Source of the DNA: Alicyclobacillus sendaiensis NBRC 100866
GTDB lineage: Bacteria > Bacillota > Bacilli > Alicyclobacillales > Alicyclobacillaceae
Direction of reading: 5' to 3'
Length of the DNA: 47,254 bases
NCBI RefSeq assembly: GCF_001552675.1
Contig: NZ_BCRQ01000015.1
Location: forward strand, 1 to 47,254
In this document: positions 5,303 to 35,715 of the stretch, one piece after another
How positions within the stretch are numbered: the stretch's first letter is position 1
How the letters are laid out: each line of letters opens with the position of its first letter
Program-made: the position numbers and the translations under genes
The notes under the pieces: generated by a model
What the model was told of the DNA's origin: nothing
The model's input: only the letters and a program-made list of their open reading frames with translations
Databases searched by the model: none

Positions 5303-5327
5303 AAAAAAGCGCCCCCGAAGGAGCGCT
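5303..5327 (-). terminator. Intrinsic terminator just upstream of the lysis operon
   Basis: Read on the minus strand, AGCGCTCC pairs with GGGGCGCT (one G-U) around a TTCG tetraloop and is followed by six T. It lies between the fibre accessory gene (stop 5347) and the papain-like gene (start 5278). There is no room for a promoter after it, so lysis genes would need read-through or antitermination. Confidence 0.82.
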
Positions 5328-20295: not shown

Positions 20296-20312
20296 CGCCC
20301 ATCACCCGCGAT

Positions 20313-20627
20313 TCACGATGCCTTTGCGGCTTCGATCGCTTGCGTCAGCTGCTCCTTGCTCATCTTGGTGTAACCCGGAATACCGAGCTCTTTCGCTGTA
20401 GCCCGCAGTGCCTTGAGCTCCGGATCAGCGGCTGCATTCTCAGCCTTCACCTCATCAGCTTTGGAATCGACGCGCATGACCGTTCCTTCTTCTTCGGCCC
20501 ACTTGAACATCGTCGATTCCGCGACCCAATCCGGCACATCCGAAAAATCGAGCGCCCGCACGAAAACGGGCGCCTCCGCCTTCTGGGGATGGTCGAACCG
20601 CAACGCCTGCCGCGCGAAGATACGCAT
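20313..20627 (-). CDS. YqbF-like small structural protein with Rho-N/SAP-like C terminus
   Basis: A 104-residue protein from ATG 20627 with GGGAGG seven bases upstream. The N-terminal half (VFVRALDFSDVPDWVAESTMFKWAEEEGTVMRVD) resembles the YqbF-type domain of PBSX-like phages. The C-terminal ~35 residues (ELKALRATAKELGIPGYTKMSKEQLTQAIEAA) match the Rho N-terminal / SAP-like helix-extension-helix that binds nucleic acid. It lies between the capsid and connector genes. The role is unknown; a connector-associated or DNA-contacting protein is plausible. Confidence 0.65.
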   Translation of the reverse strand: MRIFARQALRFDHPQKAEAPVFVRALDFSDVPDWVAESTMFKWAEEEGTVMRVDSKADEVKAENAAADPELKALRATAKELGIPGYTKMSKEQLTQAIEAAKAS

Positions 20628-20641
20628 GATGTCGCCTCCCA

Positions 20642-21649: not shown

Positions 21650-21695
21650 GCGTGAATACCTCCCTTAGTTGACCAACTCGCGACAATGGCTATCG

Positions 21696-22220
21696 TTACG
21701 GCTTGTTGCGGTTCAGGATTGTGATTTCCGCCGTGTTATTGCCGTCGATCTTGCCGGTCTTCCACACGGCATTCGGGATCAGGATGTTGTTCGTACCATC
21801 CGCCTGAGCCTCAAATCCGCCGACCACCGCATTCGGATACGAAGCATTCGCTGCGACGCGGATGTAAACAGCCCCTCCAGCGGTGGGCGTACCGAGCTGG
21901 CAGGTCACCGTGACGCTACCGCGCTCGATGACGTCGCACGGGTCGCCGGGGTTGTACTGCGTGATCCCATACGGCGCACCCAGATAACTCGTCGCCTGCT
22001 TGACCTCGCGAATGGCGACACCCGCGAAATCCGCGGCAGTATTCGACGCGCCGAACAGGGAATACGTATTGTCCGCATTCAGCACCACAGGCGCGCCAAA
22101 GGGGATAGGGTTCGTATCCGTCGGCCGCACCGGACGATTCACGATCACTGCGTCTTCGCTGCGCGACACGTTGCCCGGATAGCCTAAATTCAGCGTCTTG
22201 CCAATCACACTGCCCGGCAT
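21696..22220 (-). CDS. Capsid cement / decoration protein (Gp24 or DUF2190 type)
   Basis: A 174-residue protein from ATG 22220, ten bases after AGGAGG; ATG 22229 is too close to that site. It is all-beta with VNRPVRPTDTNPIPFGAPVVLNADNTYSLFGASNTAADFAGVAIREVKQ and a C-terminal TGKIDGNNTAEITILNR. This is the pattern of capsid structural cement proteins that bind between capsomers and stabilise the head. Position between the scaffold-protease gene and the capsid gene fits. It lacks any enzymatic motif. Confidence 0.78.
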   Translation of the reverse strand: MPGSVIGKTLNLGYPGNVSRSEDAVIVNRPVRPTDTNPIPFGAPVVLNADNTYSLFGASNTAADFAGVAIREVKQATSYLGAPYGITQYNPGDPCDVIERGSVTVTCQLGTPTAGGAVYIRVAANASYPNAVVGGFEAQADGTNNILIPNAVWKTGKIDGNNTAEITILNRNKP

Positions 22221-22277
22221 AGTGTGCATACCTCCTCTGTTGGGTAAACAAATAGGGCGCCTAATGCCTTCGCGACA

Positions 22278-23903
22278 TCACTGCGCCCGATTCTTGTAAT
22301 GCGGATTGTACTTCTTCGCCCATTCACGGCCGAGATTCGGGTCCACCGCAAAACTCGGAGCTTGCTTCTGAGCGGCGTCCTGCGCAGCCCGCTTCCGCGC
22401 GCGTTCAATCTGCGCATACGTATTGGTCTTCGGCTTGCCTTTGATGGCCTTGATTGCGGCATCCGCAGCACGCTTGCGCTCCGCAGGATCCGGGATGGCC
22501 GCAATGATGGGCTTGATGGCTCGAAGCGCCGCAATCTTATACGCCGTGTCGAGCGTCGCAAACCCGTTTTGCGGCCGATCTTCCTTGGGTGCCACAGGAC
22601 CTTCGTCCGGATTTCCGTCCTGAATCATCTCAGGGTCGATCGTGTGGCTCTCCTCGTTCTCGTCCTCGCGCGGAGGCGTATCTTCGGGATCCTCCATCTG
22701 CGCGATGGCGTCATCGATGAGCTCTTCCGCAGACTTCTCTTCGGTGTTCTCGTCCTTTGCCAGCGCTTGCTTCAGCATCTCCTCAAGCGCAGCGAAGCGT
22801 TGCTCAAATTGCGACTTCAGCTCTTCGATGGCCTTCACGTCCTCGGGGGTGTCTTCGTCGTTTGTCGCTGCTGGGTCCTCAGCCTTCTCTTCGGCCATCG
22901 CATCCACGGCTTCCATGATGTCTTCGGGTTCCGCGTCCTGTGCAAAGTGCTTCAGGCCCATGGCCGCCAAGAAATCCGTCACACGCGAGCGCTTGCGCGC
23001 CGGCAACTTCAGCTTCGTGCTCATACGATCTTGTGCCTCCTTCTTGTCGTTTGGCGTAATAATCTTGCCGTCCTTGTACTCATATCCCTCGCTCAGCAGC
23101 CGATTCGCGGCAGATGCTATCCGCTTGCCGATAATAGACCACTCTTCTGGCGTGTACTCACCATCCTCGCGCTGGCCGGCCCGATTGAAGTACTGGACAG
23201 CTGGTTCGATGTGCTCCCGGTCGATGGGATATTTATAGTTCACGGGATCGCCGTACTTCTCGCGGTCCTCCGGGTAGCCTTTGGGCGGCGAGCGATGCCC
23301 GTCGCTCTTCGGCGCAATCCCATATTTCCGGGACGCCTCTGTCGTTTCGTCGTCTACATCCGGCTTCTGGTCCAGGATTCGCACCCTATCACCAGCTCTG
23401 CCGGCATACACCACAGCCACATGGTTGCCGACGATATTGCGCTGCGAGTAGGTGCCGTCGCCGTTGTCAACGTAATCACACTCGTACCCGGCCGACACCT
23501 CGCGCTTACCGGCCCGAATCTCCTGGATGAGTTGCTCGTCATAGATGACAAGGTCGGCCAGTAAGAGGTCACTGTTCTCGCCAGATCCGCGCCGCACATT
23601 TTGCACTGCGCCTTTGGCGTAGAGGTGGGCGTTCTCGGGTGTCACCACGGATGGAGGATGGTCGTCCGTCACAGGTTTGCCCTCGAAACTTGCCATGGCT
23701 GCAGGTGCAAACACCTCTTCAGGAGACCGATAAACTTTCACGACCCGATCTCCATTCGATGTGTCCGCGCCGATCTCGCTCGCCCAGTACTCATACCATC
23801 CCGTACGGGCGATGGGGACGTTGTGCGCGACCAAAAATCCTTCTGGCGTCATGGTCTGGTTGGGCGAAAAGCGCGAACCATAGTACGCCCTAGCCGTACG
23901 CAT
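22278..23903 (-). CDS. Prohead protease-scaffold fusion (DUF2213 and DUF6582-like)
   Basis: A 541-residue protein from ATG 23903. Numbered from the upstream GTG, residues 20-180 carry the DUF2213 protease pattern, with a histidine in VTDDHPPSVV (83), a serine in KREVSAGYEC (138) and a histidine in GNHVAVVYAGRAG (162). These are candidate catalytic residues. Residues ~195-295 match a DUF6582-like insert (YKYPIDREHIEPAVQYFNRAGQ...IGKRIASAANRLL). The C-terminal half is a Glu/Asp-rich coiled coil, then a basic Ala-rich tail, as in scaffolds. Fused protease and scaffold would direct capsid assembly and be cut out in maturation. It lies between the minor head gene and the cement gene. Confidence 0.84.
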   Translation of the reverse strand: MRTARAYYGSRFSPNQTMTPEGFLVAHNVPIARTGWYEYWASEIGADTSNGDRVVKVYRSPEEVFAPAAMASFEGKPVTDDHPPSVVTPENAHLYAKGAVQNVRRGSGENSDLLLADLVIYDEQLIQEIRAGKREVSAGYECDYVDNGDGTYSQRNIVGNHVAVVYAGRAGDRVRILDQKPDVDDETTEASRKYGIAPKSDGHRSPPKGYPEDREKYGDPVNYKYPIDREHIEPAVQYFNRAGQREDGEYTPEEWSIIGKRIASAANRLLSEGYEYKDGKIITPNDKKEAQDRMSTKLKLPARKRSRVTDFLAAMGLKHFAQDAEPEDIMEAVDAMAEEKAEDPAATNDEDTPEDVKAIEELKSQFEQRFAALEEMLKQALAKDENTEEKSAEELIDDAIAQMEDPEDTPPREDENEESHTIDPEMIQDGNPDEGPVAPKEDRPQNGFATLDTAYKIAALRAIKPIIAAIPDPAERKRAADAAIKAIKGKPKTNTYAQIERARKRAAQDAAQKQAPSFAVDPNLGREWAKKYNPHYKNRAQ

Positions 23904-23924
23904 CACCTCCCTTCAACGGACCCT

Positions 23925-24791
23925 TTACCCAGCCATGCTCGGCGACCAAATCGCTTCAAACTCCTTCCGCGTCATCAGACGAATCGCGCCATTTCGGTAC
24001 ACCTTGCACGGCCACTGCACAAAGTCGAGGTCAATCAGCGGTTCGGGATAGCAGCGGCAGTTGAAGATACAACCTGCGTGATAATGCCCGTAGCTGCGCT
24101 CATGCGCCAACTCCTCCGGGCTCGGAGGGTCATCCCACGCAACCAGCACCTTGTCCATGATACGGTGGCTCTCGCGCACACGCGCGTCCTCCGACGTCCG
24201 CCAGCGATACCATCGGATCCCGAGGATTTCGCTCCGAGACTGCGTGAGCGCCGTCGCCGTCTTGTTGGTCTCGGTACGCGCGATGAGGTTCGCTTTGACT
24301 TCGGAGATGTGGGGGTAAAGCGAGAGGAGCTCCTGCGCGATATCGGACGCCCGGAGGCCCTCGAATGACCGTCGCATGATGTGCTCCGTCATTTCGCGCG
24401 CAATGTCCGCAGGGACGGAACGGATGAGCTCCGCATTCCTGCGCACCTGCGCCACGACTGCACCGCCTAGCGGGCCCTGCAGCTCGCGTTGAAGCGCCTC
24501 ATAGATCATGCGACCTTGGCTGTTCACCTTCGCCGCTTGTCGCCACGTCCGGCCTGCGTCCGTGAAGAGATGCGTGACCATCTTCATCGCAGCGGCTTCG
24601 GCATACCGGACGAACCACGCTTCGTTCATGGCAGACTTCAAGCGCTCAATGATCTCGCTTGGATCCTCTAAGCCAGTCAACAAACTTCCGAGCTGCCGTA
24701 GCGCCGCTCGAATCGCCCTGCGGTACTCCATCTCGATGCGCATTTTCGGCGCCCACAGCGGATAATGCCGAGGATAGCGGCGAGAAGGCAT
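23925..24791 (-). CDS. Minor head protein (Mu gpF / SPP1 gp7 type)
   Basis: A 288-residue protein. The C-terminal ~110 residues have the F-like minor head domain: AELIARTETNKTATALTQSRSEILGIRWYRWRTSEDARVRESHRIMDKVLVAWDDPP, and a Cys/His-rich YGHYHAGCIFNCRCYPEPL. The N terminus (YPRHYPLWAPKMRIEMEYRRAIRAALRQL) resembles the usual entry into this family, which argues for the early ATG at 24791; ATG 24743 is an alternative. It is helical in the middle. It overlaps the portal C terminus by 146 bases, unusually long for this packed genome. The protein joins portal and capsid during head assembly. Confidence 0.83.
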   Translation of the reverse strand: MPSRRYPRHYPLWAPKMRIEMEYRRAIRAALRQLGSLLTGLEDPSEIIERLKSAMNEAWFVRYAEAAAMKMVTHLFTDAGRTWRQAAKVNSQGRMIYEALQRELQGPLGGAVVAQVRRNAELIRSVPADIAREMTEHIMRRSFEGLRASDIAQELLSLYPHISEVKANLIARTETNKTATALTQSRSEILGIRWYRWRTSEDARVRESHRIMDKVLVAWDDPPSPEELAHERSYGHYHAGCIFNCRCYPEPLIDLDFVQWPCKVYRNGAIRLMTRKEFEAIWSPSMAG

Positions 24792-26196
24792 CGTCCGGGA
24801 TCACCTCACCTGGCGACGTGCCTTCGTCGGCCGCCGCGATCTGTTCATCCGTGATGTTCGTGAACATGCCCGTCGTATCCGACATCTGACGCAGCTCTTG
24901 CAGCGCCGTTTTCTGCGAAATGATGCCGGCGTTGTACAGGTTGACGAGCGCATTCGTCTTTTGTTCGACGAGGTCCGCCATGTCCTTGTCCGACGGATTG
25001 CGAATGGGGTTGAACGAGTAGTCCAGGTCGTCCGGGATCGCGCCAAACTCCGACATGCACATCACAGGCAACAGTTTATCGAGCACCGGCGCCAGGTACG
25101 TCTCCTGCGCCTGCTGCACCGTCTCGTAGTAGTGCTGCAAGTCGCTCTCGCCAGTTGCGTTCATCCCGGCCGGCGACCGCCCGAAGAGGCGCGTGACAGG
25201 GATTTGACACGCGCCGGACACGTCCATCATGAACGACTCGTAGATCTCGTTGAGGCCAGCAAACGTGTATTGAAATTGCTGGAACTCGTCGTCTTTATCC
25301 ATCACGTAAATACCCATGTTGGACATGAGCCAGTTCTGGGCCTGCAGGACGTTGTACAGGTCCGTCTGCGCTTGCTGGTCGCCCAGCGCCAGCGTCTGCC
25401 CCAAATCGGCCATTTTCATCACGCGCAGATTCGCAAGGAAGATGAGCGACGCGATGTTATAGGACGTGTTGTCGCGCTTGCGCAGCTCCTCATAGACCAC
25501 CTCGACCTCGGACAATCCCCAATGAACCTCGGCAAGCCGCTCCCAATACGGCAGGTCGCGACCCGTGAAGCGGAGGATACGGCTGTGGTGAATCCGAAGC
25601 ACCCGCCCATCCTCGAGCGTCATCAGGTAGTACATCGGCAAACCGAATTCGAGGTCGTTGATGTCCTCAACGAGTTCCTCGCTCGGATACACGCCTGTCC
25701 AACGATCCACGATCTGCAGGCCTTTGAACGACCCAGGCATGATGGTGTCATAGTCAAGCGGCTCATCGAGGATATCCTCGTGCCCTTCGATGAGCATGAG
25801 GCCCGCAGCACCCCCGTACAGGCGCCCCCACTTGAGCCCTTGCAGGATCTTCTGCTTCAAGTGTTTCGCACGCCACATGCGATTGAGCTTGTCGAGCGCT
25901 TCCGGAGGGATCTGCGTATGGAGGGTGATCCAGTTGCGGCACATATCCTCGGGGATGATGTCGACCACGCGCCGCACAATCCAGTTATTGCGATATAGGC
26001 TGTTGAGCAACTGATAGTTTTGCGTCAAACGCGTCAGCGGGTATTCCGTTCCCTCGATGAGGTTCGGGGTACCGTAGCCGAGGCGCGCAAGAGGGTTGCT
26101 AAAGGCATCCATCGTGACCACGCGCGAAAGCACCTTCGCAAATTCATCGAGCGTAAGGCCTTCGGGTTCACTGGATGGGGCCTTCAGTGTTCGCAT
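24646..26196 (-). CDS. Portal protein (DUF1073 type)
   Basis: A 516-residue protein from ATG 26196 with GGGGGGTG six bases upstream; the frame 62 codons longer is Arg-rich and lacks a site. It has the DUF1073 pattern NNWIVRRVVDIIPEDMCRNWITL, QGLKWGRLYGGAAGLMLIEG, HWGLSEVEVVYEELRKRDNTSYNIASLIF and LFGRSPAGMNATGESDLQHYYETVQQAQE. It forms the dodecameric portal at one capsid vertex. Databases sometimes name such proteins after the anti-CBASS Acb1 family, but the position after terminase shows a portal. The last ~50 residues overlap the next gene in another frame. Confidence 0.87.
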   Translation of the reverse strand: MRTLKAPSSEPEGLTLDEFAKVLSRVVTMDAFSNPLARLGYGTPNLIEGTEYPLTRLTQNYQLLNSLYRNNWIVRRVVDIIPEDMCRNWITLHTQIPPEALDKLNRMWRAKHLKQKILQGLKWGRLYGGAAGLMLIEGHEDILDEPLDYDTIMPGSFKGLQIVDRWTGVYPSEELVEDINDLEFGLPMYYLMTLEDGRVLRIHHSRILRFTGRDLPYWERLAEVHWGLSEVEVVYEELRKRDNTSYNIASLIFLANLRVMKMADLGQTLALGDQQAQTDLYNVLQAQNWLMSNMGIYVMDKDDEFQQFQYTFAGLNEIYESFMMDVSGACQIPVTRLFGRSPAGMNATGESDLQHYYETVQQAQETYLAPVLDKLLPVMCMSEFGAIPDDLDYSFNPIRNPSDKDMADLVEQKTNALVNLYNAGIISQKTALQELRQMSDTTGMFTNITDEQIAAADEGTSPGEVIPDDAFSPLSSALSAVGAENAHRDGVPQGDSSGATAARKFVDWLRGSKRDH

Positions 26197-26215
26197 AGAT
26201 TTCACCCCCCTCGCC

Positions 26216-27433
26216 TCAGATTGCATGGAGTCGCCGCGGACTGACCACCGTCGCAACGAGATAGCGCATGGCGTCAACTGCATGGTCGTTCTGCTTGACC
26301 GGTTTCTCCTGACCGCGTTCGGCCGCCTTCTCGTCCCACACGTAGCCCGAAATTTCTTTGATGAGGTTCTTGCATCGGTCACGATTCACGCGCAATTTCC
26401 GCTTCGCGATCATCGTCGACGTCATGCGGATACCTTCCAGCACGTCGTTTTCAGCGCTCTTGACCAAGAAGCCGCGGCGCCGCAGCGCTACTTTGAAGCT
26501 CGCCGCCGACGGGTCGACGATGACAAAGCGCGGACGGTCTGCTCCGACAAAGCGGATAAGGTCGTCCGCGTACTCCGCATCCTCTTTCTGCCGCCCGTGC
26601 TCACGCCCGCTGTGGTAGTACTCATTGACGACCCACAACGTGTCACCATCATCCAGGCAGTCGAGAAACACCGTGGCGTTCTGCGTGCCATAGTCCACCG
26701 ACACGTATCGACGCGCTACTGTCTTCAGCCCCGGCGGCATGTCATCATCCGCGAATGTATTAAGCGTGTCATCCCACATGTCGTACACAGCGCCTTCCGC
26801 CATGACCCACAGCCCGAGGATGAATCGCTTGTACCAGAGACCCGTGTATTCGCGTTTCAGTGACTCCACGTACGCCGGATCGAGGTTCGGGTTATCGTCA
26901 AGCGTGAAGCTCCAGGACGTCATATCGAGTTCCGCGTTGTCGAGATATTGCTCCTTGAGCCAGTGGTATGGGCTATCAGGGTTCGTTGTCCCAAACAGTT
27001 TGGCACCAGGCACAGACAGACGCGATAGGAGCATCTTGAAGAAGTTCTCCGGCCAAAGCGTCAGCTCATCGCCGTACGCGCCGGCCAACGTCATGCCTCG
27101 GATTTTGCCCTCCGCTCGCTCATCGTTGGCCCCGGCGACGTAGATTTTGCGACCGCAAATGTAGACCTCGCCCTCACCCTTGTTGTAGCGGTACAGTCGC
27201 GGCCCGAGGATCTGCTCGAGCACGTCGAGGATGTTGCGCTTCAGGGTTCGCTCGGTCTTGCCGACCATAAGCAGGTCTCCAGGCGGACCTGTGGCAATGT
27301 AGTCCAACCAGCGCACCATACTGGCGATCGTTTTGCCGCTTCGCACAGCGCCTTCCCAGATGTTCAGCCGCGCCGTCGAATCGCGAATTGAGGCCATCTG
27401 TTTGTCGCTAAATCGCCCCCAGGTAAAGCTCAT
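26216..27433 (-). CDS. terL: Terminase large subunit
   Basis: A 405-residue protein. Walker A GAVRSGKT is at residues 28-35, Walker B at LAGAYGDELT with Asp122-Glu123, and a coupling motif TTNPDSP at 149-155. The RNase H-like nuclease has Asp247 in SVDYGT, Asp307 in IVDPSA and Asp383/Asp387 in NDHAVDAMRY. All key residues are present, so both packaging ATPase and DNA-cutting functions should work. The size and pattern match PBSX/SPP1-type large subunits of headful-packaging phages. It overlaps the small subunit gene by four bases (ATGA) and precedes the portal. Confidence 0.93.
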   Translation of the reverse strand: MSFTWGRFSDKQMASIRDSTARLNIWEGAVRSGKTIASMVRWLDYIATGPPGDLLMVGKTERTLKRNILDVLEQILGPRLYRYNKGEGEVYICGRKIYVAGANDERAEGKIRGMTLAGAYGDELTLWPENFFKMLLSRLSVPGAKLFGTTNPDSPYHWLKEQYLDNAELDMTSWSFTLDDNPNLDPAYVESLKREYTGLWYKRFILGLWVMAEGAVYDMWDDTLNTFADDDMPPGLKTVARRYVSVDYGTQNATVFLDCLDDGDTLWVVNEYYHSGREHGRQKEDAEYADDLIRFVGADRPRFVIVDPSAASFKVALRRRGFLVKSAENDVLEGIRMTSTMIAKRKLRVNRDRCKNLIKEISGYVWDEKAAERGQEKPVKQNDHAVDAMRYLVATVVSPRRLHAI

Positions 27434-27984
27434 GGCCTCGAGCTCTCCCGAATCGCCTCGACAAGCCCGCTCAAGCTATCGAGATCACGTCCGTCTCCGG
27501 ACAGCAGACGGTGTTTCAACTCGATGAGCTTCAGCTTGCGCTCTTGCACGCGCGTGAGCGCCTCCTCGATGCGCTGAATGGTGTTCAATACGGGCTGCAT
27601 GACGACGGTCTCTGACGTCTTCGTGCCGGTCTCGTCCGCAGACTCGCTACGGACGAGCTGCTCTACGCCGAGATCTTCGCTTTGCCGTAATCGCTGAATC
27701 CGTTGAAGCATGCGCCGTTCTCGAATCTCGGTTAGACGGATTTCGTTATCCAGTTGCACGAGTGCATCGATGTCGATCGCGTGAAAAAGTACGCGTTCCG
27801 CGTCGTCCAGCGTGTCCAGCCATATCGTTTCATACTCGCCTGTCGTGACCGCGTTTTTGTTACCCCGCAACTTTTCCGGCGGCGCGCCAGTCGACTTACC
27901 GCCATGCATGCGGCATCGCCCATTCGCCATCGCGTTGCTTTGACACGGTGTCCCTTTACGCGTCTTCGCACCACACTTTGCCAT
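27430..27984 (-). CDS. Terminase small subunit-like DNA-binding protein (HGGK type)
   Basis: A 184-residue protein with GAAGGTGG before ATG 27984. It begins with a Cys/His knuckle CGAKTRKGTPCQSNAMANGRCRMHGGKSTGAPPEKLRGNKNAV, which is common in small terminase or packaging proteins that bind cos/pac DNA. The middle and C terminus are a long charged helix or coiled coil (ERRMLQRIQRLRQS..., IEEALTRVQERKLKLIELKHRLLSG) suited to an oligomeric ring. It is coupled to the large subunit (ATGA). The small-subunit role is inferred from position and the HGGK motif. Confidence 0.8.
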   Translation of the reverse strand: MAKCGAKTRKGTPCQSNAMANGRCRMHGGKSTGAPPEKLRGNKNAVTTGEYETIWLDTLDDAERVLFHAIDIDALVQLDNEIRLTEIRERRMLQRIQRLRQSEDLGVEQLVRSESADETGTKTSETVVMQPVLNTIQRIEEALTRVQERKLKLIELKHRLLSGDGRDLDSLSGLVEAIRESSRP

Positions 27985-27996
27985 TTCACCACCTTC

Positions 27997-28242
27997 TTAC
28001 ACGCATGAGGTTCGTTTCGCGCGTAGTTGTCGTTGCCGTTCGCGTTTCACGTATTCCCAATTCGTCGTTTCGTCGCCTGTCTCGCGTATCGGTTGCGCCA
28101 CATAGCGCGTTACCCGGTCGGTCATCGTGTCATGCACAAAGTTCCCGTAGCGCTCCATCACGCACCGGGGCAAGGCGCATTTCGCACGACTCCCGGATAG
28201 CCGCGTCATGTACACACACGGGTAACCCTCCTGGCATAACAC
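27997..28242 (-). CDS. Four-cysteine small protein upstream of the terminase
   Basis: An 81-residue protein. GTG 28242 follows GGAGGAGG by eight bases, one of the strongest ribosome sites in the window. Cys3, Cys9, Cys22 and Cys27 (VLCQEGYPCVY...AKCALPRCV) could bind one zinc ion; the rest is basic and Gln/Arg-rich. It is the first gene after the leader terminator and directly precedes the terminase genes. The function is unknown; a DNA- or RNA-binding role in packaging or late transcription is possible. Confidence 0.7.
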   Translation of the reverse strand: MLCQEGYPCVYMTRLSGSRAKCALPRCVMERYGNFVHDTMTDRVTRYVAQPIRETGDETTNWEYVKRERQRQLRAKRTSCV

Positions 28243-28267
28243 GATTCCGACCTCCTCCGCGTCAACG

Positions 28268-28292
28268 AAAAAGGCCGCCCCGTAGGGCAGCC
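28268..28292 (-). terminator. Leader terminator ahead of the late (terminase) operon
   Basis: On the minus strand GGCTGCCC pairs with GGGCGGCC (one G-U) around TACG and is followed by five T. It lies 26 bases before the GTG of the Cys-rich gene and about 40 bases after the candidate late promoter. It is similar in design to the hairpin at 5303-5327. Confidence 0.83.
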
Positions 28293-28333
28293 GAATCGCT
28301 CATCTCGAATTTTGGGTGCACTTCTCCAAGGGC

Positions 28334-28378
28334 ATTGTAACATGGGGTTTCCGCACGAAATCCGCATAATTTCCGCAC
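28334..28378 (-). promoter_or_regulatory. Candidate late promoter with three phased activator-type repeats
   Basis: On the minus strand GTGCGGAAA (28378-28370), ATGCGGATT (28367-28359) and GTGCGGAAA (28356-28348) recur at exactly 11-bp steps. They are followed by an extended -10, TGTTACAAT, with TACAAT at 28339-28334. No good -35 is present, as in activator-dependent promoters. Transcription would start near 28327 and meet the terminator at 28292-28268 first. Confidence 0.7.
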
Positions 28379-28381
28379 ACT

Positions 28382-28546
28382 TCACTGGGAATTTTCCAGA
28401 TATAGAGTGAGACCAAGTAAGTCCGCTACGGCCATAAGCGCTTCCGACCGCTGTTTTTCGAAATATCGCATGCCGTAGCACCACCGCGAATCCGCACGCA
28501 ACAACGCCTCATACGTCTCCTCATTCGTCAGTTGCTCGCGCCCCAT
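28382..28546 (-). CDS. C-terminal piece of a split small protein, possible late regulator
   Basis: A 54-residue product from ATG 28546, ten bases after AGGAGG. The sequence (REQLTNEETYEALLRADSRWCYGMRYFEKQRSEALMAVADLLGL) is helical. Its ending resembles the last helix of RinA/ArpU-type late regulators. It overlaps the preceding ORF (stop 28528) by 19 bases in the -1 frame. One extra G in the GGGG run near 28541-28544 would join both into one protein of about 150 residues. It may be a genuine coupled gene, a mutated gene or a sequencing error. Confidence 0.5.
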   Translation of the reverse strand: MGREQLTNEETYEALLRADSRWCYGMRYFEKQRSEALMAVADLLGLTLYLENSQ

Positions 28547-28842
28547 ATACTGATCGCCTCCTGATACCGTGGCAAGCCGGCTACCACACGCTCGACGTCC
28601 CGAACAAACCACTGCATGTACCGCAGCTTTCCGTCGATTTTCTCGACCAACGGCCAGGTCGATCGAAACCCCGGCGCGTGGATGGTATCTGGGTGCTGTG
28701 CATGCTCGTAGCCTGGCACGGGCTGCAGCTCTTCACGCGGAACCGTACCCGCGTTAAGCAACTGCACGAAGCGTCGATACACCGCGAAATACGCTTGCAC
28801 CGCTTGGCGAGTGCGTGCCTTATCCACCACGTACGTCGTCAA
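28528..28842 (-). CDS. N-terminal piece of a split small protein, possible late regulator
   Basis: A 104-residue ORF that follows the SNF2 gene by only a few bases. The sequence is helical (KARTRQAVQAYFAVYRRFVQLLNAG) with a KLRYMQWFVRDVERVVAGLPRYQEAISIWGAS ending that resembles the middle of RinA/ArpU-type regulators, where GLPxxYQ blocks are usual. Its frame closes right after ISIW, while the -1 frame continues sensibly. It is the last early gene, directly upstream of the phased repeats, the normal place for a late activator. The regulator call is an inference. Confidence 0.5.
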   Translation of the reverse strand: MTTYVVDKARTRQAVQAYFAVYRRFVQLLNAGTVPREELQPVPGYEHAQHPDTIHAPGFRSTWPLVEKIDGKLRYMQWFVRDVERVVAGLPRYQEAISIWGASN

Positions 28843-28845
28843 CGC

Positions 28846-30237
28846 TCACACCCCCACGACCGCGGACTCGGAACGCACGCGCTCAATGCGCGCCTTCAAG
28901 GCCTCAATCAGCCGCTCTTGCGCATCCGCTTTGCCTTCCAAGGCCTCCATCACGTCCTCGTCCACACTGTCCTCGACCACCAGGTGATGCACGATCACGC
29001 GTTCCGTTTGCCCTTGACGGTGCAGGCGCTTATTGGCCTGCTGGTACAACTCCAAGTTCCACGTCAAGCCGAACCAGATCACATGATTGCCGCCTTGCTG
29101 AAGATTCAGGCCAAACGCCGCGCTGGCCGGATGCGCCAGCAAGACGTCGATCTGCCCGGCGTTCCAGTCGTCCTCGTCTTGCGGCCCACGCAACTGTCGC
29201 ACACGAAGACCGGTCTTCGCCAGCGCCGCCTGTAAACGCGCCGCGTCGTGCTGAAAGCCGTAGAACACGAGCGCCGGTTTACCGTTCAAGGCTTCGACGA
29301 GTTCCAAGAAAGCCTCCAGCTTGCAGTCATGAATCGGCACGACTTGACGCTCCTCGTCGTACACCGCGCCGTTACACAGCTGCAGCAGTTTCCCGGTCAA
29401 GACGCCTGCGCTGCCAGCATCTATCGTGTTCTCGTCCACCCGCAACAACATGTCTCGCTCCAACGTCTGATAAGCCCTTCGCGCCTTCGCATCAAGGGCC
29501 ACCGGCACCGTGACATACGTGATCTCCGGCAGCTCGAGATAATCCTCCGCCTTCATGCTGATGGCGATGTCGCCGATGAGACGCCGGATGACCTCATCCG
29601 CGCCCGGCTTCGGCGCGTAGCTCCAGATGTGCTCTCGGTCCCGCTGATCCGGGTCGAAGTATCGCTCGCGAAACCCAACGAACGACTTGCCCAAGCGCTC
29701 GCCCTGGTCCAGCAGGTAGACCTGCGCCCACAGGTCCTCAAGCCCGTTCGGCGCGGGGGTGCCGGTCAGTTCTACAATGCGCTTGATATGGCCCCGCACC
29801 AGCTTCAACGCGCGAAACCGCTTCGATTTCGGGTTCTTGAACGACGTCGACTCGTCGATGACCACCATGTCGAACGGCCACGCGTTGCGATAATACTCGA
29901 CTAGCCACGGAACATTCTCGCGATTGATCACGTAGATATCAGCCGGCGTATTCAGCGCCCGAATCCGCTTCGTCTGTGACCCAAGCACCGGGACGATTCG
30001 CAACAAGCGCAAATGATCCCACTTCCGCGCCTCACGAATCCATGTCGACTCGGCCACCTTCTTCGGGGCGATAACGAGGACCTTCGATACGGCGAACCGG
30101 TTGTACTTCAGGTCGTTAATCGCGGTTAGCGTGATCACCGTCTTGCCAAGGCCCATATCAAGCATGAGAATTAGCGCCTCGTCCCGAATCACGCGTTCGA
30201 TGCAGTAGCGCTGATAGCTATGCGGCTCGAACTTCAC
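28846..30237 (-). CDS. SNF2-family DNA helicase/translocase
   Basis: A 463-residue protein. Motif I is DMGLGKT (Walker A, residues 28-33), motif II VVIDESTSFKN (Asp128-Glu129), motif III ELTGTPAPNGLEDLWAQVYLL. The C-terminal lobe carries PALVFYGFQHDAARLQ, AHPASAAFGLNLQ and the arginine-finger motif QANKRLHRQGQ. This is the short SNF2 helicase common in phage replication modules, lacking accessory domains. Its start overlaps the VRR-NUC stop by four bases, a standard pair. It probably translocates on duplex DNA in replication or recombination. Confidence 0.9.
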   Translation of the reverse strand: MKFEPHSYQRYCIERVIRDEALILMLDMGLGKTVITLTAINDLKYNRFAVSKVLVIAPKKVAESTWIREARKWDHLRLLRIVPVLGSQTKRIRALNTPADIYVINRENVPWLVEYYRNAWPFDMVVIDESTSFKNPKSKRFRALKLVRGHIKRIVELTGTPAPNGLEDLWAQVYLLDQGERLGKSFVGFRERYFDPDQRDREHIWSYAPKPGADEVIRRLIGDIAISMKAEDYLELPEITYVTVPVALDAKARRAYQTLERDMLLRVDENTIDAGSAGVLTGKLLQLCNGAVYDEERQVVPIHDCKLEAFLELVEALNGKPALVFYGFQHDAARLQAALAKTGLRVRQLRGPQDEDDWNAGQIDVLLAHPASAAFGLNLQQGGNHVIWFGLTWNLELYQQANKRLHRQGQTERVIVHHLVVEDSVDEDVMEALEGKADAQERLIEALKARIERVRSESAVVGV

Positions 30238-30518
30238 GTGCCTTGCACCTCCTCGATGAACGCGTCCACGCGCTCCTTGCTGTCCAGGACGTACACCGCA
30301 AAGCCCAACGCTCGAATCCGTTCCTGCTGCACCCGCTGGAGCGGCGTCGGCCGCCGCCCCGGCGCCTTCAGCTCCACGAACACCGCCCTGCCGCCAGGCA
30401 AAAGGACCAGTCGGTCAGGCACACCGGCATTGCCCGGCGACACGAATTTATAGGCTCGTCCACCCAACGCAGCCACGCGCTTGCGCAGGTAGGCCTCGAT
30501 GTCGCGTTCTCTTACCAT
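30234..30518 (-). CDS. VRR-NUC domain nuclease
   Basis: A 94-residue protein. ATG 30518 overlaps the stop of the preceding gene and follows AAGGAG; the longer frame is rejected for lack of a site. It has the PD-(D/E)XK variant seen in VRR-NUC proteins: N-terminal REARDIEAYL-type helix (RERDIEAYLRKRV), Gly-Val-Pro-Asp35-Arg, then Phe-Val-Glu49-Leu-Lys51, then TPLQRVQQERIRALG. Phage VRR-NUC proteins act as structure-specific endonucleases, possibly on Holliday junctions. It is encoded directly before the SNF2 helicase, with which it commonly pairs. Confidence 0.9.
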   Translation of the reverse strand: MVRERDIEAYLRKRVAALGGRAYKFVSPGNAGVPDRLVLLPGGRAVFVELKAPGRRPTPLQRVQQERIRALGFAVYVLDSKERVDAFIEEVQGT

Positions 30519-30817
30519 CGTCGCAAAATCTCCTTGCATACGTTTCGAACCTTCTGCACTCTCCAGGGAGGGCATCGGTCGTTATAAAACCAAATCATGT
30601 CGCGTACGCCGTCTTTGGGGACGACTCCTCGAAAAACGTGAAGTCCTCGTTTCCTCATCGGTACGACCCATACTGAAGAATCCAACGGTTTACGAGAATA
30701 GATCGGCTCGTAGTCGCGGTTAAACAATTGCATAGTGCCGTCTTCAAAGATCGTTACTCCATACGGCAACTCTTTCCACAGAAATTGGATGAAATCGTTC
30801 TTGGACATACGACCCAT
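30512..30817 (-). CDS. Hypothetical early protein
   Basis: A 101-residue protein. ATG 30817 follows GGGGTGG by five bases; ATG 30808 is the alternative. The sequence is mixed alpha/beta (FIQFLWKELPYGVTIFEDGTMQLFNRDYEPIYS, GLHVFRGVVPKDGVRDMIWFYND, CPPWRVQKVRNVCKEILRRW) without a motif I recognise. It is the first gene after the AT-rich intergenic region of palindromes and is coupled to VRR-NUC. It is less GC-rich than the helicase, so it may be a recent addition. The function is unknown. Confidence 0.6.
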   Translation of the reverse strand: MGRMSKNDFIQFLWKELPYGVTIFEDGTMQLFNRDYEPIYSRKPLDSSVWVVPMRKRGLHVFRGVVPKDGVRDMIWFYNDRCPPWRVQKVRNVCKEILRRW

Positions 30818-30904
30818 TTATTCCACCCCGCCTCTCTCCCTCACGACTTAAACAATCTAACTAACATTCGTAGGGGGAGCTTAATAGTAAAAAAGATAAC
30901 CCGT

Positions 30905-30952
30905 AAAGGATTTATAGACTTTTTTGCAGGTTATAAAGTCTATAAATCCTTT
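30905..30952. repeat. Perfect 18-bp inverted repeat
   Basis: AAAGGATTTATAGACTTT (30905-30922) is repeated in inverted orientation at 30935-30952 around a 12-base loop. The perfect match over 18 bp in an AT-rich spacer is not expected by chance. No strong T-run follows immediately on either strand, so a protein site or origin hairpin is as likely as a terminator. Confidence 0.85.
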
Positions 30953-31086
30953 AATTTTATGTTTCTCTAAACCCTATTGTTGTTGTTGTTTAACTTCATA
31001 ATCCTTGATATATAAAGGATTTCTACTCTTAAACTCATAACATCTTAAACATTCCCAGACTTACCCTCCTCACCTTTTAAGCTGTC

Positions 31087-31112
31087 GTTAAAGGTCTTCT
31101 ATAACCTTTAAC
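31087..31112. repeat. Perfect 9-bp inverted repeat
   Basis: GTTAAAGGT (31087-31095) pairs with ACCTTTAAC (31104-31112) over an 8-base loop, just downstream of the primase-helicase stop on the minus strand. It shares AAAGG with the other repeats in this gap. A terminator role on the minus strand is possible but there is no T-run. Confidence 0.7.
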
Positions 31113-31115
31113 CTG

Positions 31116-33695
31116 CTATTTTTCCGTTATAGATCTGTATAGCATGGAATCTTTTTCTTTGCGCTTCAACGCAACCTCCTTATCTTGGGTTTCGCTCCCG
31201 TTGTGTTCCCTGGAAACTACGTGTAGGGATGAGTTGCGTCGAAACCCTCGTTGCGTTCCATATAATGGTCCAAACCACAGAGTTGTTCCTCTGTCCCACC
31301 CTTCTAAACTTTGCAAGATGGAGTTGATTCGGGCGGCGTCAGCCTTTGTCATGGCACGCCTCTCCCCTAGGCACTCCCGCCATATCTCTAAGGCGCATAC
31401 GCGGTCACGTGGAACGAGTTTGAGGCTCTCGGTTTGCATTTCGCCGCCCCAATACATTAACCGTCGACCCAGGCTCCACTTCGACCAATCTTCCGGGACG
31501 GGTTTCTGAAGAAACTCCTCGATGATGCCTTGCAATGGGTCACGCTCCAGATGAATTTCGCGGCGCCGGTCGGCTTCCGCCTCCAATTCCTTCGGTAGCG
31601 TCAAAGGTTCACCGAGGCGCCAGCGCATCACGGCCTCTGCCCAGATCTGGTCGACAACGTGGTCGTGCAAATCGTCATAAGAGGACAGCTTTGGTTCTTG
31701 GACTAAAATATCCACGGGCCAAAAACGGCGATTACCTGTCTGATCGCGTAGATACTCATGGTCGTTCGTCGTGCCGAAAAAGATACAGCGACGAATCTGA
31801 CTTTTGACGGTTCGAGCGTACGCCGGTCGATATTGGTCCTCCTCTTTACTTAAGAACTGCTTAATGCGATTGACGTCGCTTTTGTTGAACGCCTGAAGTT
31901 CAGCGATTTCGACAATCCACTTTCCTGCGATGAGCTCTTCTGCTTCCTTGCCTTCGAAGCTTTTGATACTATCCGTAAACCACTGTCGCCCAAGACGACG
32001 GAATAACGTGCTTTTTCCCTTGTTCTGCGGCCCGCTCAAAACGGTCATAACGTCAAATTTCACGGGCTTATCACTCATGGCACGCGCCACAGCTGCAACT
32101 AATGCTTTACGCGCAACCGCCCGCGTGTATGGGCAGTCTTCTGCGCCCAAATAGTCGATATAAATGGTGTCGAGTCGCGGTACGCCGTCCCATTTCAGGC
32201 TCATGAGATACTCTCGGACCGGATTGCGTGCATGTCGCGCAGCGTGTTCATATACAGCTGCTTCAATGATCCGACTCGGCTTCATCCCAAGAAGAGAGTC
32301 TAAATACACACTGAATCCCGCGTCGTCTTGCGGTCCCCAAGGCTGTTCTTCCGTCTCGTGCATGCGTGTTCCCCACGGCAATGGTGGAACCACCATCAGT
32401 CGATCCGCAAACGTGTCCAAATAGATGCGCCCCTTGAGTGCCGGGTCGTTCTCAAGGACCACTTGCACGTTATACGCGCTCTTCTCCGGCGCGCCGGTGT
32501 TCGGGTTGCGCTTTAGCTTCCTCAGCCAACTGAGGTCGGTCCCCGTAGACGCCGTCTCCGCAGCTGCTCCCGAAACGCCGACGTCTGCCGCCGGCGCTTC
32601 CGAGGTCGCGGTGATTTCGTCCGCAAACGCCTCGCGCACTTGCGCGTAACGCTCGGCATCGAGCACGGCCATGACGTCCGGGTCCTGGATGGCGAGTTGC
32701 CGCATGGCGGACCAGCTGGGCAGCTTTGCGGGCGGCGTGCCGGGTGCGGCGTCGTCATCGAGGTCGCCGAATTTGTGTAACCGCACCAGGTCCCATGCGT
32801 TCACGAGCCGCCCGCTGACTGGATCCGTGGCGTGGTGCGAGTACAGGTACAATCCGTTGTCGTACACGATGGCGCCACCGGTCGTCGTGCCACCTGTGTA
32901 GGTATAACGGTCCGGGTGTTCGGTCGGCTCATACACGCCGGGCAGGTATTTGTCCATCGCGCGATAGATGTCGTAGACCTTGCAGAACGCCCCGACGATC
33001 CCCGTCTTAGTGGTCGGGTCGGCTTGTTTCGTCGCGCGCTTGACCTGCGCGTCATGTACGCCTGGCACTTGCGGCCACTCCGACACGTCTCGCCAGTTGA
33101 CGTACATCGCCAGGAGGCCGTCCGTGTCGACGAACGGCTTGTCTCCGTAGTGGAAGACGTACTGGCTGTCGGCGCAACAGGATGGCCAGTACATGAGCCG
33201 TGAGGCCTCGAACGTCGTCGGGTCGCATAGCTCGATACCGAGAATAGATGCGAGCTTCCGCGCGACCGGCTCATATTCATCTGCCGTCGCCGTGCGGCTG
33301 AGTGGGAAGAGCGCGCGTAGCCGTGGTTTCGCCGGTTCGTGCTTGCGGGTGCTGTAGACGACGTACGCGCACCCGAGGGCCTCCAGCCGGCGCAGGACGT
33401 CATCCGTGGCGCCTGCGGGAATGTGGTCGAGGTCGAGGGTGATGAGATCCCGCCCCGCTACGTTCGCGGCCTTGCGGCGGTCTCCGTGGAACCAACCGCC
33501 GACAAAGCCGCCCACGTCCTTCAGATCGTCCTGTTGCGCCTTAGGGAGCTGGAGGTATTGCTCGAGCGTCTCCGTGCCTCGCACCGGCACGCGCAGGCGT
33601 TCGACGAGCTCCGACCAGTAGATTTGCTGGGCCGGCCAATGCGTGGCCTTACGACTGCCTGCCGCTGCGATGGTGAGAAGTTTGTCGTATTGCAT
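31116..33695 (-). CDS. Primase-helicase (AEP-like primase plus VirE/SF3-type helicase)
   Basis: An 859-residue protein. ATG 33695 follows GAGGAT; the ORF beginning 19 codons earlier overlaps the DUF4406 gene. Residues ~80-130 carry an archaeo-eukaryotic-primase-like pattern with an acidic Asp88-x-Asp90 (TLDLDH), then YVVYSTRKHEPAKPRLRALFPLSR. The C-terminal half is a VirE/VapE-type P-loop helicase with Walker A SGPQNKGKST, then KWIVEIAELQAFNKSD and a FFGTTNDHEYLRDQTGNRRFWPV block. Phage VapE-type proteins prime and unwind DNA at the phage origin. The final ~120 residues are more AT-rich at DNA level, close to the AT-rich repeats at 30.9-31.1 kb. Confidence 0.87.
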   Translation of the reverse strand: MQYDKLLTIAAAGSRKATHWPAQQIYWSELVERLRVPVRGTETLEQYLQLPKAQQDDLKDVGGFVGGWFHGDRRKAANVAGRDLITLDLDHIPAGATDDVLRRLEALGCAYVVYSTRKHEPAKPRLRALFPLSRTATADEYEPVARKLASILGIELCDPTTFEASRLMYWPSCCADSQYVFHYGDKPFVDTDGLLAMYVNWRDVSEWPQVPGVHDAQVKRATKQADPTTKTGIVGAFCKVYDIYRAMDKYLPGVYEPTEHPDRYTYTGGTTTGGAIVYDNGLYLYSHHATDPVSGRLVNAWDLVRLHKFGDLDDDAAPGTPPAKLPSWSAMRQLAIQDPDVMAVLDAERYAQVREAFADEITATSEAPAADVGVSGAAAETASTGTDLSWLRKLKRNPNTGAPEKSAYNVQVVLENDPALKGRIYLDTFADRLMVVPPLPWGTRMHETEEQPWGPQDDAGFSVYLDSLLGMKPSRIIEAAVYEHAARHARNPVREYLMSLKWDGVPRLDTIYIDYLGAEDCPYTRAVARKALVAAVARAMSDKPVKFDVMTVLSGPQNKGKSTLFRRLGRQWFTDSIKSFEGKEAEELIAGKWIVEIAELQAFNKSDVNRIKQFLSKEEDQYRPAYARTVKSQIRRCIFFGTTNDHEYLRDQTGNRRFWPVDILVQEPKLSSYDDLHDHVVDQIWAEAVMRWRLGEPLTLPKELEAEADRRREIHLERDPLQGIIEEFLQKPVPEDWSKWSLGRRLMYWGGEMQTESLKLVPRDRVCALEIWRECLGERRAMTKADAARINSILQSLEGWDRGTTLWFGPLYGTQRGFRRNSSLHVVSREHNGSETQDKEVALKRKEKDSMLYRSITEK

Positions 33696-33708
33696 CGTCA
33701 CCACATCC

Positions 33709-33999
33709 TCATTCGTCCAGTTCGATGACGGGCATGCCGAGCTGTTGGGCAATCACATACTCAAGCCGCGCGCCGCGGGAAGACTCCCAGCCCGGTAGCA
33801 TCGCTACAGCGTCTGCGTCGAGTAGCATCCGGAGCGCCCGACGCATGTACCAGGCCCACGGTTGATGCAGGTCGGTCACGCCTTCCGCGGGGTTCAGCGG
33901 CTCACCCCCCAGGGCGCGGATGACCTCCGCGGCGCGAAAGAACGCAGGATAGTTGTAGTCGGGTAGCCCGGTCATGGGACCCGCTATGTAGACTTTCAT
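33709..33999 (-). CDS. DUF4406 protein (nucleoside deoxyribosyltransferase-like)
   Basis: A 96-residue protein. It has the full DUF4406 pattern: MKVYIAGPMTGLPDYNYPAFFRAAEVIRALGGEPLNPAEG, an YMRRALRMLLDADAVAMLPGWESSRGARLEYVIAQQLGMPV and an acidic end. The fold is that of nucleoside 2-deoxyribosyltransferases, with the GPMTG loop and the SRGARLE block at the active site. It probably hydrolyses or salvages a nucleotide, or makes a signalling molecule; the substrate is unknown. It lies just before the primase-helicase in the replication module. Confidence 0.85.
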   Translation of the reverse strand: MKVYIAGPMTGLPDYNYPAFFRAAEVIRALGGEPLNPAEGVTDLHQPWAWYMRRALRMLLDADAVAMLPGWESSRGARLEYVIAQQLGMPVIELDE

Positions 34000-34076
34000 T
34001 CGGTCTCACTCCTACATAGAGCCGCCAACAGTTCAGCGCTGACGGCTCGTGTCATGTTGTGCGAACATGCTCTCGG

Positions 34077-34340
34077 CTACTCGTCAATTTCTATTTGTGA
34101 CGCGCGCGGGCAGTAGTACAACCACACGTTGAATGATGGGCGTACTTCTACGAGATATCGGTCCACCTTCGCCATGTTTTTGGCCTTGAGAAAGTGTTCC
34201 GGCGTTCCCTTTGGTGCGTACGCGAGTGCCGAATGTCCTGCCGGCACGAACGCAATGACGGTGCCCGTCATCTGCATTCGCTCGCCGCGGCGTCGGATGA
34301 ACCATCGAACCCTTGTACCAGGCCCTAGTTGTTCATTCAT
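34077..34340 (-). CDS. Small early protein with SH3-like fold
   Basis: An 87-residue protein. ATG 34340 follows GAGGTG by nine bases, a good ribosome site, although the frame is open much further upstream. It has a beta-barrel pattern (GTRVRWFIRRRGERMQMTGTVIAFVPAGHSALAYAPKG...DRYLVEVRPSFNVWLYYCPRASQIE) like small phage proteins in replication modules. It is likely a separate gene and not a C-terminal domain of the methyltransferase fragment upstream in frame. The function is unknown. Confidence 0.65.
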   Translation of the reverse strand: MNEQLGPGTRVRWFIRRRGERMQMTGTVIAFVPAGHSALAYAPKGTPEHFLKAKNMAKVDRYLVEVRPSFNVWLYYCPRASQIEIDE

Positions 34341-34694
34341 GTTTCTAGTCACCTCACATCCATTCCAGAAGCGTGGAAGAAGTGTCGTGCCGTCTTGGCC
34401 TCCATAACACCCACGCATAATCCGCGCTGTCAGTGCCTCGACCTGTAAAGCTCGGGCGTTTGGACAACACGTACACAACTTGAAGTCAGTCCCGGCTTGT
34501 ATGTCGAAGGCTGTCACCACTGCGCCGCGGTCTTGAAGCGCCCGAGCGATTTCACCCGCTCCGGCGCACGGCTCGAGTACCGTCTTGCCGTGCACCAGCG
34601 GTCCGATCTTGTCCAACAGAGCTTCAATGACCCATCTTGGCGTTTGATACGCGTCATATTCGTGTCGTGCTGTGCCGCGGTTCGTTGCGCTCAT
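34077..34694 (-). pseudogene. Truncated DNA methyltransferase reading into the SH3-like gene
   Basis: The frame from ATG 34694 has 205 residues. Residues 1-70 look like the start of a DNA methyltransferase: DAYQTPRWVIEALLDKI and the SAM motif I TVLEPCAGAGEIARAL, followed by AVVTAFDIQAGTDF. The catalytic NPPY/DPPY-type motif IV is missing. Instead the frame reads a Cys-rich segment (LCTCCPNARALQVEAL...) and then an SH3-like protein with its own ribosome site at 34340. A deletion that removed most of the enzyme and fused the frame is the simplest reading. Methylation activity is not expected. Confidence 0.6.
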
Positions 34695-34715
34695 GTTGAG
34701 TAGGCCTCTCTCCTG

Positions 34716-35519
34716 TTAGTACTTCCGGCCGCCGTGGCGGTACGCCCGTGCCTTGTTCCGCGCCATTTTGGTTAAAAGCGCATCCGCGAGATTCAGTCCA
34801 TGTGCGGCGGCAGTGTCGAATGTGCGGATGACGACATCGGCCAGTTCCTCGGCCACTTGCTCCATGCCATAACCTTTGCGGTCCGCTTCAAGCGCTTCGC
34901 TGACTTCGGAGTGGATGAGCGCGAGGTGCACCGGCAATGGTGTTTCAGTGTCGTGCCAGCCTTTGCTGCGCGCGGTGACGTGTACGTCTTCGATGAGCGC
35001 CTCGAGCACCGTTCGTGCTACGTCCTCGTGGCACACGAGGGTGAAGGTGAGCGACGGTTCGAATTCGGATTCACTAGTGGCCTTCTCGTCCGGCTCATCG
35101 TGCGCGGTATCTTGTGCAGGATCTTGTGCGTCCGTGACCTCCGTATCGGCAACTGGTGCGACCTCGACTGTGTGGACAGAGAGTTGACGACGTAGCTCGT
35201 CAAGCGCGGCTGCCTCCGCGTGCATATCTCTAATGCCCCACCGTTCAAGGGCTTGGTAGCCCTGACTGTGCGAGTTGAAGAGCTCTCGAATGGCCTGGGC
35301 TCGACCTCGACCATTCAATCGCAACGTGAGGTACGCCTCCTGCGTCGGTTCGGGCTTGTCCTTGCGCTTGTTCCCATATCGCTCCTCGAGGTACGCTTCC
35401 ATTTCGGCTTTGCTCATGTGATACACCACCATTTCGCTGGATTGCTCCGCCGCGCGCTCCCGGTCCGCGTGTGGGACCGGGGTGCCGGCGAGCGTGCGGT
35501 GATAATTCCGATACGTCAC
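34716..35519 (-). CDS. MazG-like protein with N-terminal accessory domain
   Basis: A 267-residue protein. GTG 35519 overlaps the stop of the preceding gene (GTGA). The C-terminal ~80 residues carry a MazG/NTP-PPase helical pattern: LPVHLALIHSEVSEALEADRKG, then VAEELADVVIRTFDTAAAHGLNL, giving the ExxE and ExxD acidic pairs that bind metal and nucleotide. Such enzymes hydrolyse dNTP or NTP and adjust pools. The N-terminal ~110 residues are a separate, basic, helical domain (DRERAAEQSSEMVVYHMSKAEMEAYLEERYGNKRK), followed by an acidic linker. The role of the N-terminal part is unknown. Confidence 0.78.
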   Translation of the reverse strand: MTYRNYHRTLAGTPVPHADRERAAEQSSEMVVYHMSKAEMEAYLEERYGNKRKDKPEPTQEAYLTLRLNGRGRAQAIRELFNSHSQGYQALERWGIRDMHAEAAALDELRRQLSVHTVEVAPVADTEVTDAQDPAQDTAHDEPDEKATSESEFEPSLTFTLVCHEDVARTVLEALIEDVHVTARSKGWHDTETPLPVHLALIHSEVSEALEADRKGYGMEQVAEELADVVIRTFDTAAAHGLNLADALLTKMARNKARAYRHGGRKY

Positions 35520-35704
35520 GACTTGTCCACCTCGCGTTTGCGAGGTCGGGCTTTGCCCTGGTCAGGGTGACGCAGGATGTAGTCGAGCACGCGGACCTGT
35601 TGACCGACGACATACGTGAGCTCAATGACCGTGGGCAAGCCCTTGTGCATTTTTAGCGGACGCGCTTCGACGATGACGACATCGGAAGTGACGGGAGTGC
35701 CCAT
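35516..35704 (-). CDS. Small early protein of unknown function
   Basis: A 62-residue protein from ATG 35704, nine bases after GAGG. The sequence (TSDVVIVEARPLKMHKGLPTVIELTYVVGQQVRVLDYILRHPDQGKARPRKREVDKS) is beta-rich and ends in a basic tail. Coupling to the MazG-like gene by a GTGA overlap shows it is translated in the early operon. No family is recognised. Confidence 0.55.
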   Translation of the reverse strand: MGTPVTSDVVIVEARPLKMHKGLPTVIELTYVVGQQVRVLDYILRHPDQGKARPRKREVDKS

Positions 35705-35715
35705 TCCGCCCCACC

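Follow-up and report, generated by a model that had tools for sequence, protein, structure and literature searches.

A predicted activator-dependent late promoter with a leader terminator in an Alicyclobacillus phage, and recurrence of the layout at ArpU-type loci

The sequence of the window (the whole stretch of 47,254 nucleotides analysed here) marks its switch as one for the late genes of an ArpU/Ltr-type phage, and it is very probable that the late promoter depends on an activator and is followed by a leader terminator. Activation from direct repeats is the known aspect of such a switch; the less known and apparently little-noticed aspect is that the leader terminator recurs in ArpU phages. 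From the repeats, the promoter shape, the terminator, the activator family, its linked divergence and the recurrence, all read in the sequence, we infer steps of binding, activation, termination and read-through as follows. An ArpU/Ltr-type activator, encoded just upstream, would bind phased 11-bp repeats via a helix-turn-helix predicted to resemble sigma region 4, and the bound activator would recruit host RNA polymerase to an extended -10 promoter that has no -35; this binding and recruitment are strongly indicated. The transcript would begin near position 28327 and reach an intrinsic terminator after ~60 nt, which would shield the late operon from basal transcripts and from early read-through, and polymerase started by the activator would pass this terminator, most likely after modification at the promoter, as with lambda Q. 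We lean slightly towards polymerase modification over plain partial read-through, and antitermination as the way past the leader terminator is credible while falling somewhat short of probable. The explanation as a whole, an activator-driven early-to-late switch with a leader terminator that is passed by polymerase modified at the promoter, is in our judgement modestly probable.

Promoter, leader and late operon of the window phage

The window is the entire contig NZ_BCRQ01000015.1 of a 2.79-Mb genome and matches IMG/VR virus record L011. By its large terminase, the closest relative is the virus contig L012 (91% identity); among named relatives, an Alicyclobacillus macrosporangiidus prophage comes nearest (L091, 86% identity). 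According to our reading of the translations, the minus strand, on which all of the features below lie, carries the replication, packaging, structural and lysis genes; family searches covered part of these, and the designation of lysis genes is itself a reading of translations. The late operon includes the genes of the terminase small subunit (27430..27984; phrog_1889, E 1.9e-36) and large subunit (26216..27433; TIGR01547, E 7.4e-47). Searches of phage records with the window DNA (near mode) and with the activator of L008 returned no useful match, nor did scans of viral contigs queried with the L008, L009 and L231 activators.

Three 11-bp direct repeats, the putative activator sites, occupy positions 28345..28377 and read, on the minus strand, TGCGGAAATTA (28377-28367), TGCGGATTTCG (28366-28356) and TGCGGAAACCC (28355-28345). 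They are directly followed by the 11-mer CATGTTACAAT (28344-28334), which holds the extended -10, so that there are four consecutive 11-mers in all. The hexamer TGCGGA thereby occurs three times, with an exact spacing of 11 bp, immediately before TGTTACAAT. In a scan of fixed spacings from 7 to 16, this triplet at 28377 was the only one of a repeated hexamer in the whole window, and 20 windows simulated with an order-2 Markov model contained no hexamer triplet at spacing 10 or 11. Thus, the three exactly spaced repeats reported in the preliminary description are present and are the single such triplet in the window, while their designation as GTGCGGAAA-type strictly applies to copies 1 and 3, the middle copy being ATGCGGATT. 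Single copies of GTGCGGAAA are unremarkable, since four occurrences per strand were found at up to one mismatch against 5.6 expected; it is their phasing that is remarkable. A phased 11-bp sequence is found at the same position in several relatives, and L012 has three repeats at 11-bp steps with another sequence.

The extended -10 TGTTACAAT (28334..28342) has a predicted start near 28327. No -35-like hexamer was visible by eye at 16-18 nt from it, and a sigma-70 scan of positions 20000-36000 called no promoter at the late-switch site, both of which bear out the earlier view of a promoter that lacks a -35. L012 retains the extended -10 as TGATACAAT, and related hexamers occur at other Alicyclobacillaceae loci. 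The predicted transcript starts with GGAGAAGTGCACCC (28314..28327), a GGA...CCC 14-mer of a form common to the relatives, which have a similar 14-15-mer. Such a GGACA-N4-TGTCC-like element opens the leader in the window (28327-28314) and in L003, L006, L007, L009, L123, L128 and L124, in a comparison of eight sequences, about seven of them independent, aligned by hand; by eye, it sits at a near-constant distance from the -10.

The leader ends in an intrinsic terminator, GGCTGCCCTACGGGGCGGCC followed by TTTTT (28292-28268, -15.6 kcal/mol), which begins 41 nt past the -10, in agreement with the strong terminator previously placed about 40 bases past the promoter; the T run ends the leader ~60 nt from the predicted start. 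None of 200 shuffles folded as well as the 37-nt hairpin (z -4.0), while for the whole 63-nt leader the z-score was only -1.8 and 13 of 200 shuffles were as good. A leader this discrete and short, with a start that is similar across Alicyclobacillaceae loci, could itself be the product, either as a small RNA of ~60 nt, for which lambda 6S RNA offers a parallel, or as a hairpin protecting or processing the late mRNA. We consider this improbable: by eye, the part of the leader between the start element and the terminator is not conserved across loci, and no Rfam family reached the gathering threshold anywhere in the window.

A second intrinsic terminator lies inside the late operon at 5303..5327, just before the presumed lysis genes, as had been described, and is conserved in the L012 phage, in which the bases immediately before it differ. 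The presumed lysis genes begin ~24 nt past it, which is too close for a promoter in between, and neither repeats nor a promoter were seen by eye beside this terminator, which also has no phased triplet.

The first open reading frame past the leader terminator encodes an 81-aa four-cysteine protein (27997..28242) that matched nothing in Pfam or PHROGs. The motif C-x(2-5)-C-x-W/Y-...-C-x4-C, a pattern composed after examples had been seen, was found in 13 of 41 late loci that were picked by hand and in none of the 41 on the antisense strand. In these 13 loci (the window, L003, L006, L007, L009, L010, L128, L019, L193, L218, L224, L244 and L256), the gene of the small protein lies 150-570 nt after the activator stop. 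The protein also occurs at 3 of 72 other ArpU loci, one of which is L012 and one a repeat of L224, and three of the eight four-cysteine proteins tested matched phrog_32677 weakly.

The activator gene and its divergence together with the repeats

The open reading frames 28528-28842 and 28382-28612 together represent one activator gene, as they match one continuous frame in nine relatives, each of which has a single open frame of 152-189 aa. The N-terminal part of this ArpU/Ltr-type late activator occupies a 104-aa frame (28528..28842), and the C-terminal helix-turn-helix part lies in a different frame (28382..28612), which aligns over 56 residues with the C-terminal third of the L012 protein at 80% aa identity. 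The window gene is without 10 bp that are present in L012, which results in a frameshift. A programmed frameshift was also considered and rejected, as the L012 gene is a single frame from which the window differs by the loss of 10 bp.

The late-switch layout that had been proposed is supported, and with a frameshift in its activator gene this copy of the switch may be dead. Is the region then a dead remnant, with a broken activator and a layout that is merely inherited? The 10-bp loss and a recognition half that differs from that of L012 would fit such a history, but the promoter, the leader and both terminase genes look intact, and the C-terminal frame stays open with a GGAGG ~10 nt before an in-frame ATG (window 28528-28612), so that a two-piece activator is conceivable in the window phage. 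We regard a non-working remnant as very improbable.

Assignment to the family comes mainly from the relatives, as the two half-frames of the window alone match weakly or not at all (28382..28612 matched phrog_248 with an E of 0.2). Seven of the eight intact relatives matched phrog_248, annotated as a transcriptional activator (E 1.7e-14 to 3.2e-5), and seven of eight matched TIGR01637 ArpU, every match being under the curated cut-off; a profile built from canonical ArpU proteins recovered L012 at 7e-11 and L008 at 1.4e-17. The C-terminal domain bears a modest predicted resemblance to sigma region 4: 11 of the 27 members of the alignment matched Pfam Sigma70_r4_2 when E values of up to 5 were admitted (the best being 7.9e-5), a fold search against the PDB gave weak results, all with E above 1 (6onu_D at a probability of 0.60), and a fold search against viral regulators performed better (best E 3.4e-4).

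The activator stop lies ~0.4 kb from terS in both the window and L012, and the distance is larger in L013 (~3 kb) and L170 (~4 kb); by tblastn, terS was not found in most of the other fetched activator regions. At some loci (for example, L257, L259, L278, L181, L182, L186 and L198), an ArpU-type gene is directly followed by an open reading frame labelled integrase-like, a label that is a reading of its start, and no late promoter lies between the two.

One additional piece of evidence was provided by the comparison of the window with L012, a single phage pair. Within the activator gene, the identity is 96.8% in the N-terminal part; in the C-terminal part it is 92.9% over the first 70 bases and 70.7% over the recognition half. 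From the stop codon to the extended -10, the stretch of the repeats, it is 61.5%, and it rises to 98.5% in the leader and 96.0% in the next 600 bp. The recognition half and the repeats appear to have changed together while their surroundings were kept, as a protein and its site would when paired; recombination that swapped a single contiguous block would leave the same trace. The two phages amount to a natural experiment for matching residues to the repeats that they read.

Recurrence of leader terminators at ArpU-type loci

Among 69 regions downstream of activators, the best repeat lag was 11 bp in 16 (8.3% in shuffles), followed by 12 bp in 12 (8.0% in shuffles), and lag 11 stood at the 99th percentile of shuffles in 10. 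Leader terminators were then counted under a fixed rule, in which the promoter is a strict extended -10 located 20-160 nt after the activator stop, one per locus, and the terminator is a hairpin of -9 kcal/mol or better with a T run within the next 110 nt; an earlier terminator finder that missed several hairpins had been replaced. Similarity reduction left 47 of 60 loci in the first set and 37 of 80 in the fresh set. In the first set, which is exploratory as the rule was fixed after its inspection and in which the window has the same leader as L012, L197 is related to L204 and L123 to L128, a leader terminator was found at 15 of 32 loci in the sense orientation, at 4 of 32 in antisense and in 3.4% of shuffles. 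With the rule unchanged, the fresh virus-contig loci yielded 9 of 21 in sense (two of the nine, L242 and L243, repeat L216 and L224), 1 of 21 in antisense and 1.9% in shuffles.

The rule has its misses: phi11 and L124 were counted as negative though each has a later hairpin, and L247 was dropped, having no strict extended -10, though a hairpin with a T run is readable there. L125, L129 and L130 were also dropped from the first set, and L248, with an internal stop, was kept out of the alignment. A leader terminator is absent in Harrison, in A118 and, within 110 nt, in TP901-1, and none lies near the promoter in Sitara.

A wider count took every extended -10 in L180-L321 on both strands. After removal of near-duplicates, a terminator followed 18 of the 36 distinct sites with 11-bp repeats and 54 of the 657 without them (n=693; Fisher P 5e-10, a value made too small by residual relatedness, in a count that pools the first and fresh sets and hence is not independent of them). 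With duplicates kept, the figures were 46 of 85 repeat-type sites and 88 of 1146 others.

Another important question is whether such a terminator belongs to the late leader or is simply the end of the early operon. In the latter case, the promoter would be an ordinary activator-dependent one, crowding by the repeats would have displaced the early terminator past it, and excess late RNA would partly read through. The repeats do begin immediately past the stop codon of the activator gene, no leader terminator was scored at half of the repeat-type sites (18 of 36), and most loci allow this interpretation, including L202, L185 and L232, in which a terminator is found only before the candidate promoter. 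On the other hand, terminators are enriched after repeat-type promoters, as counted above, and the promoter is flanked by terminators on both sides in at least four loci, amounting to about three independent cases (the related L197 and L204, Geobacillus phage PK5.2 and Virgibacillus phage Mimir87), where the second terminator meets mainly late RNA. These four loci make it probable that the leader terminator is more than an early-operon end, and we treat the displaced early terminator as a serious possibility that nonetheless stays well below an even chance.

The recurrence of leader terminators and the four loci with a second terminator also make the idea in the preliminary description, that one factor both starts late transcription and lets it pass terminators, better founded. 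In its general form, the ArpU/Ltr activators of Bacilli phages would be dual factors that load on polymerase at 11-bp repeats, often with a second -10-like element, and make it terminator-resistant; we advance this tentatively, as less likely than the alternative outcomes taken together. The second -10-like hexamer was seen at 26 ArpU promoters outside Alicyclobacillaceae, picked by hand, with T in 25, A in 26 and T in 24 of the 26 at three positions, and it follows 19 of the 36 distinct repeat-type sites and 23 of the 657 others; it is absent from the window. This hexamer, TAnTRT, whose first base lies 8 bp past that of the first -10, is found, among others, in L191, L019, L209, L216, L218, L222, L224, L244, L250, L251, L178 (TP901-1) and L341 (PK5.2). 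It may serve as an alternative -10 or as a site of sigma-dependent pausing. A long hairpin with no T run stands right after the extended -10 in L013 (~1795-1860), the A. macrosporangiidus prophage.

If terminators regularly follow ArpU promoters and in some phages are not just early-operon ends, how late polymerase passes them becomes an easily tested question, one that bears on the control of leakage in lysogens, phage satellites, transduction and phage engineering in Gram-positive hosts. If the activators are indeed dual factors, processive antitermination would govern late control in many Gram-positive temperate phages and would have evolved independently of the lambda Q families.

Comparison with known late regulators

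The preliminary description did not recognise the arrangement as one already described. For activators acting at direct repeats this does not stand, as Alt and Ltr are known to do so according to the part of PMC13123087 drawn on here; the leader terminator is the less known element. In the same part of that source, ArpU/Ltr-type regulators are treated as promoter activators (PMC13123087). Among the papers listed in our literature search, none deals with leader terminators or antitermination in ArpU/Ltr phages; an earlier description may exist.

In the Lactococcus phage TP901-1, the binding sites of Alt are four imperfect direct repeats between -76 and -32, as stated in the portion of PMC13123087 used. 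The likeness to the window lies in an activator gene upstream and in repeats that can be read as 11-bp steps, followed by the extended -10 TGATATACT. The repeats of TP901-1 are, however, further from the -10 than those of the window, and Alt matches PF05263 (DUF722), unlike the families matched by the window group. Two tRNA genes, for tRNA-Lys and tRNA-Ala, lie in the TP901-1 leader that separates the late promoter from terS (L178 4135-4376), with no terminator in the first 110 nt and a hairpin with a T run only just before terS.

The Staphylococcus phages phi13 and phi11, of the Ltr superfamily of regulators, share with the window a small activator (Ltr and RinA, respectively) encoded just upstream of the late promoter. 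Within the part of PMC13123087 considered, Ltr requires its repeats for activity, these are 18 bp long versus 11 bp in the window, and the reporter that needs Ltr carries only 50 bp past the start; with so little sequence after the start, Ltr acts on initiation in phi13, and antitermination would be an extra function. In the phi13 stretch examined, a search for the ltr frame revealed no frame over 90 aa. In phi11, too, the stretch from rinA to terS contains a terminator, and RinA is related to the window family only via weak DUF1492 and sigma-4 matches.

The analogy with lambda PR'-tR' and Q that had been drawn applies to the layout and not to ancestry. Lambda and HK97 have a regulator gene, an extended -10 promoter and a short leader, and in HK97 a hairpin with a T run stands close after the promoter, in the matching place; lambda under the same scan had a later hairpin only. 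The HK97 Q protein belongs to PF03589 and not to ArpU, no 11-bp repeats were seen in lambda or HK97, and the -10-like pause element that Q systems have in the first transcribed bases is absent in the window. Homology of ArpU to Q82-type antiterminators was considered and rejected, as the ArpU and PF06530 profiles do not align (hhalign against seven PF06530 proteins, probability 0.31-0.45%), and neither PF03589 nor PF06530 was among the matches of the 27 alignment members. A PF06530 search also gave matches in the control genomes of E. coli and Lactococcus lactis, in one of them over the cut-off. Leader hairpins were looked for at eight PF06530-type loci as well, which were left uncounted as their promoters are not known.

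What the layouts may share is the way past the terminator. Lambda Q modifies polymerase at the promoter and thereby makes it terminator-resistant. In the Caulobacter gene transfer agent, GafYZ both activates transcription and antiterminates it at a late promoter that is phage-like and whose -35 is degenerate, as described in the portion of PMC11150451 used, and differs from the window in employing two proteins plus IHF and in having its terminator after the first gene. AlpA of Pseudomonas aeruginosa is, in the portion of PMC7969949 used, an antiterminator rather than an activator and passes terminators starting 54 and 26 nt after the start; with a binding element located between the -35 and -10 in a Gram-negative host, it resembles the switch proposed here in that a regulator at the promoter lets polymerase pass terminators.
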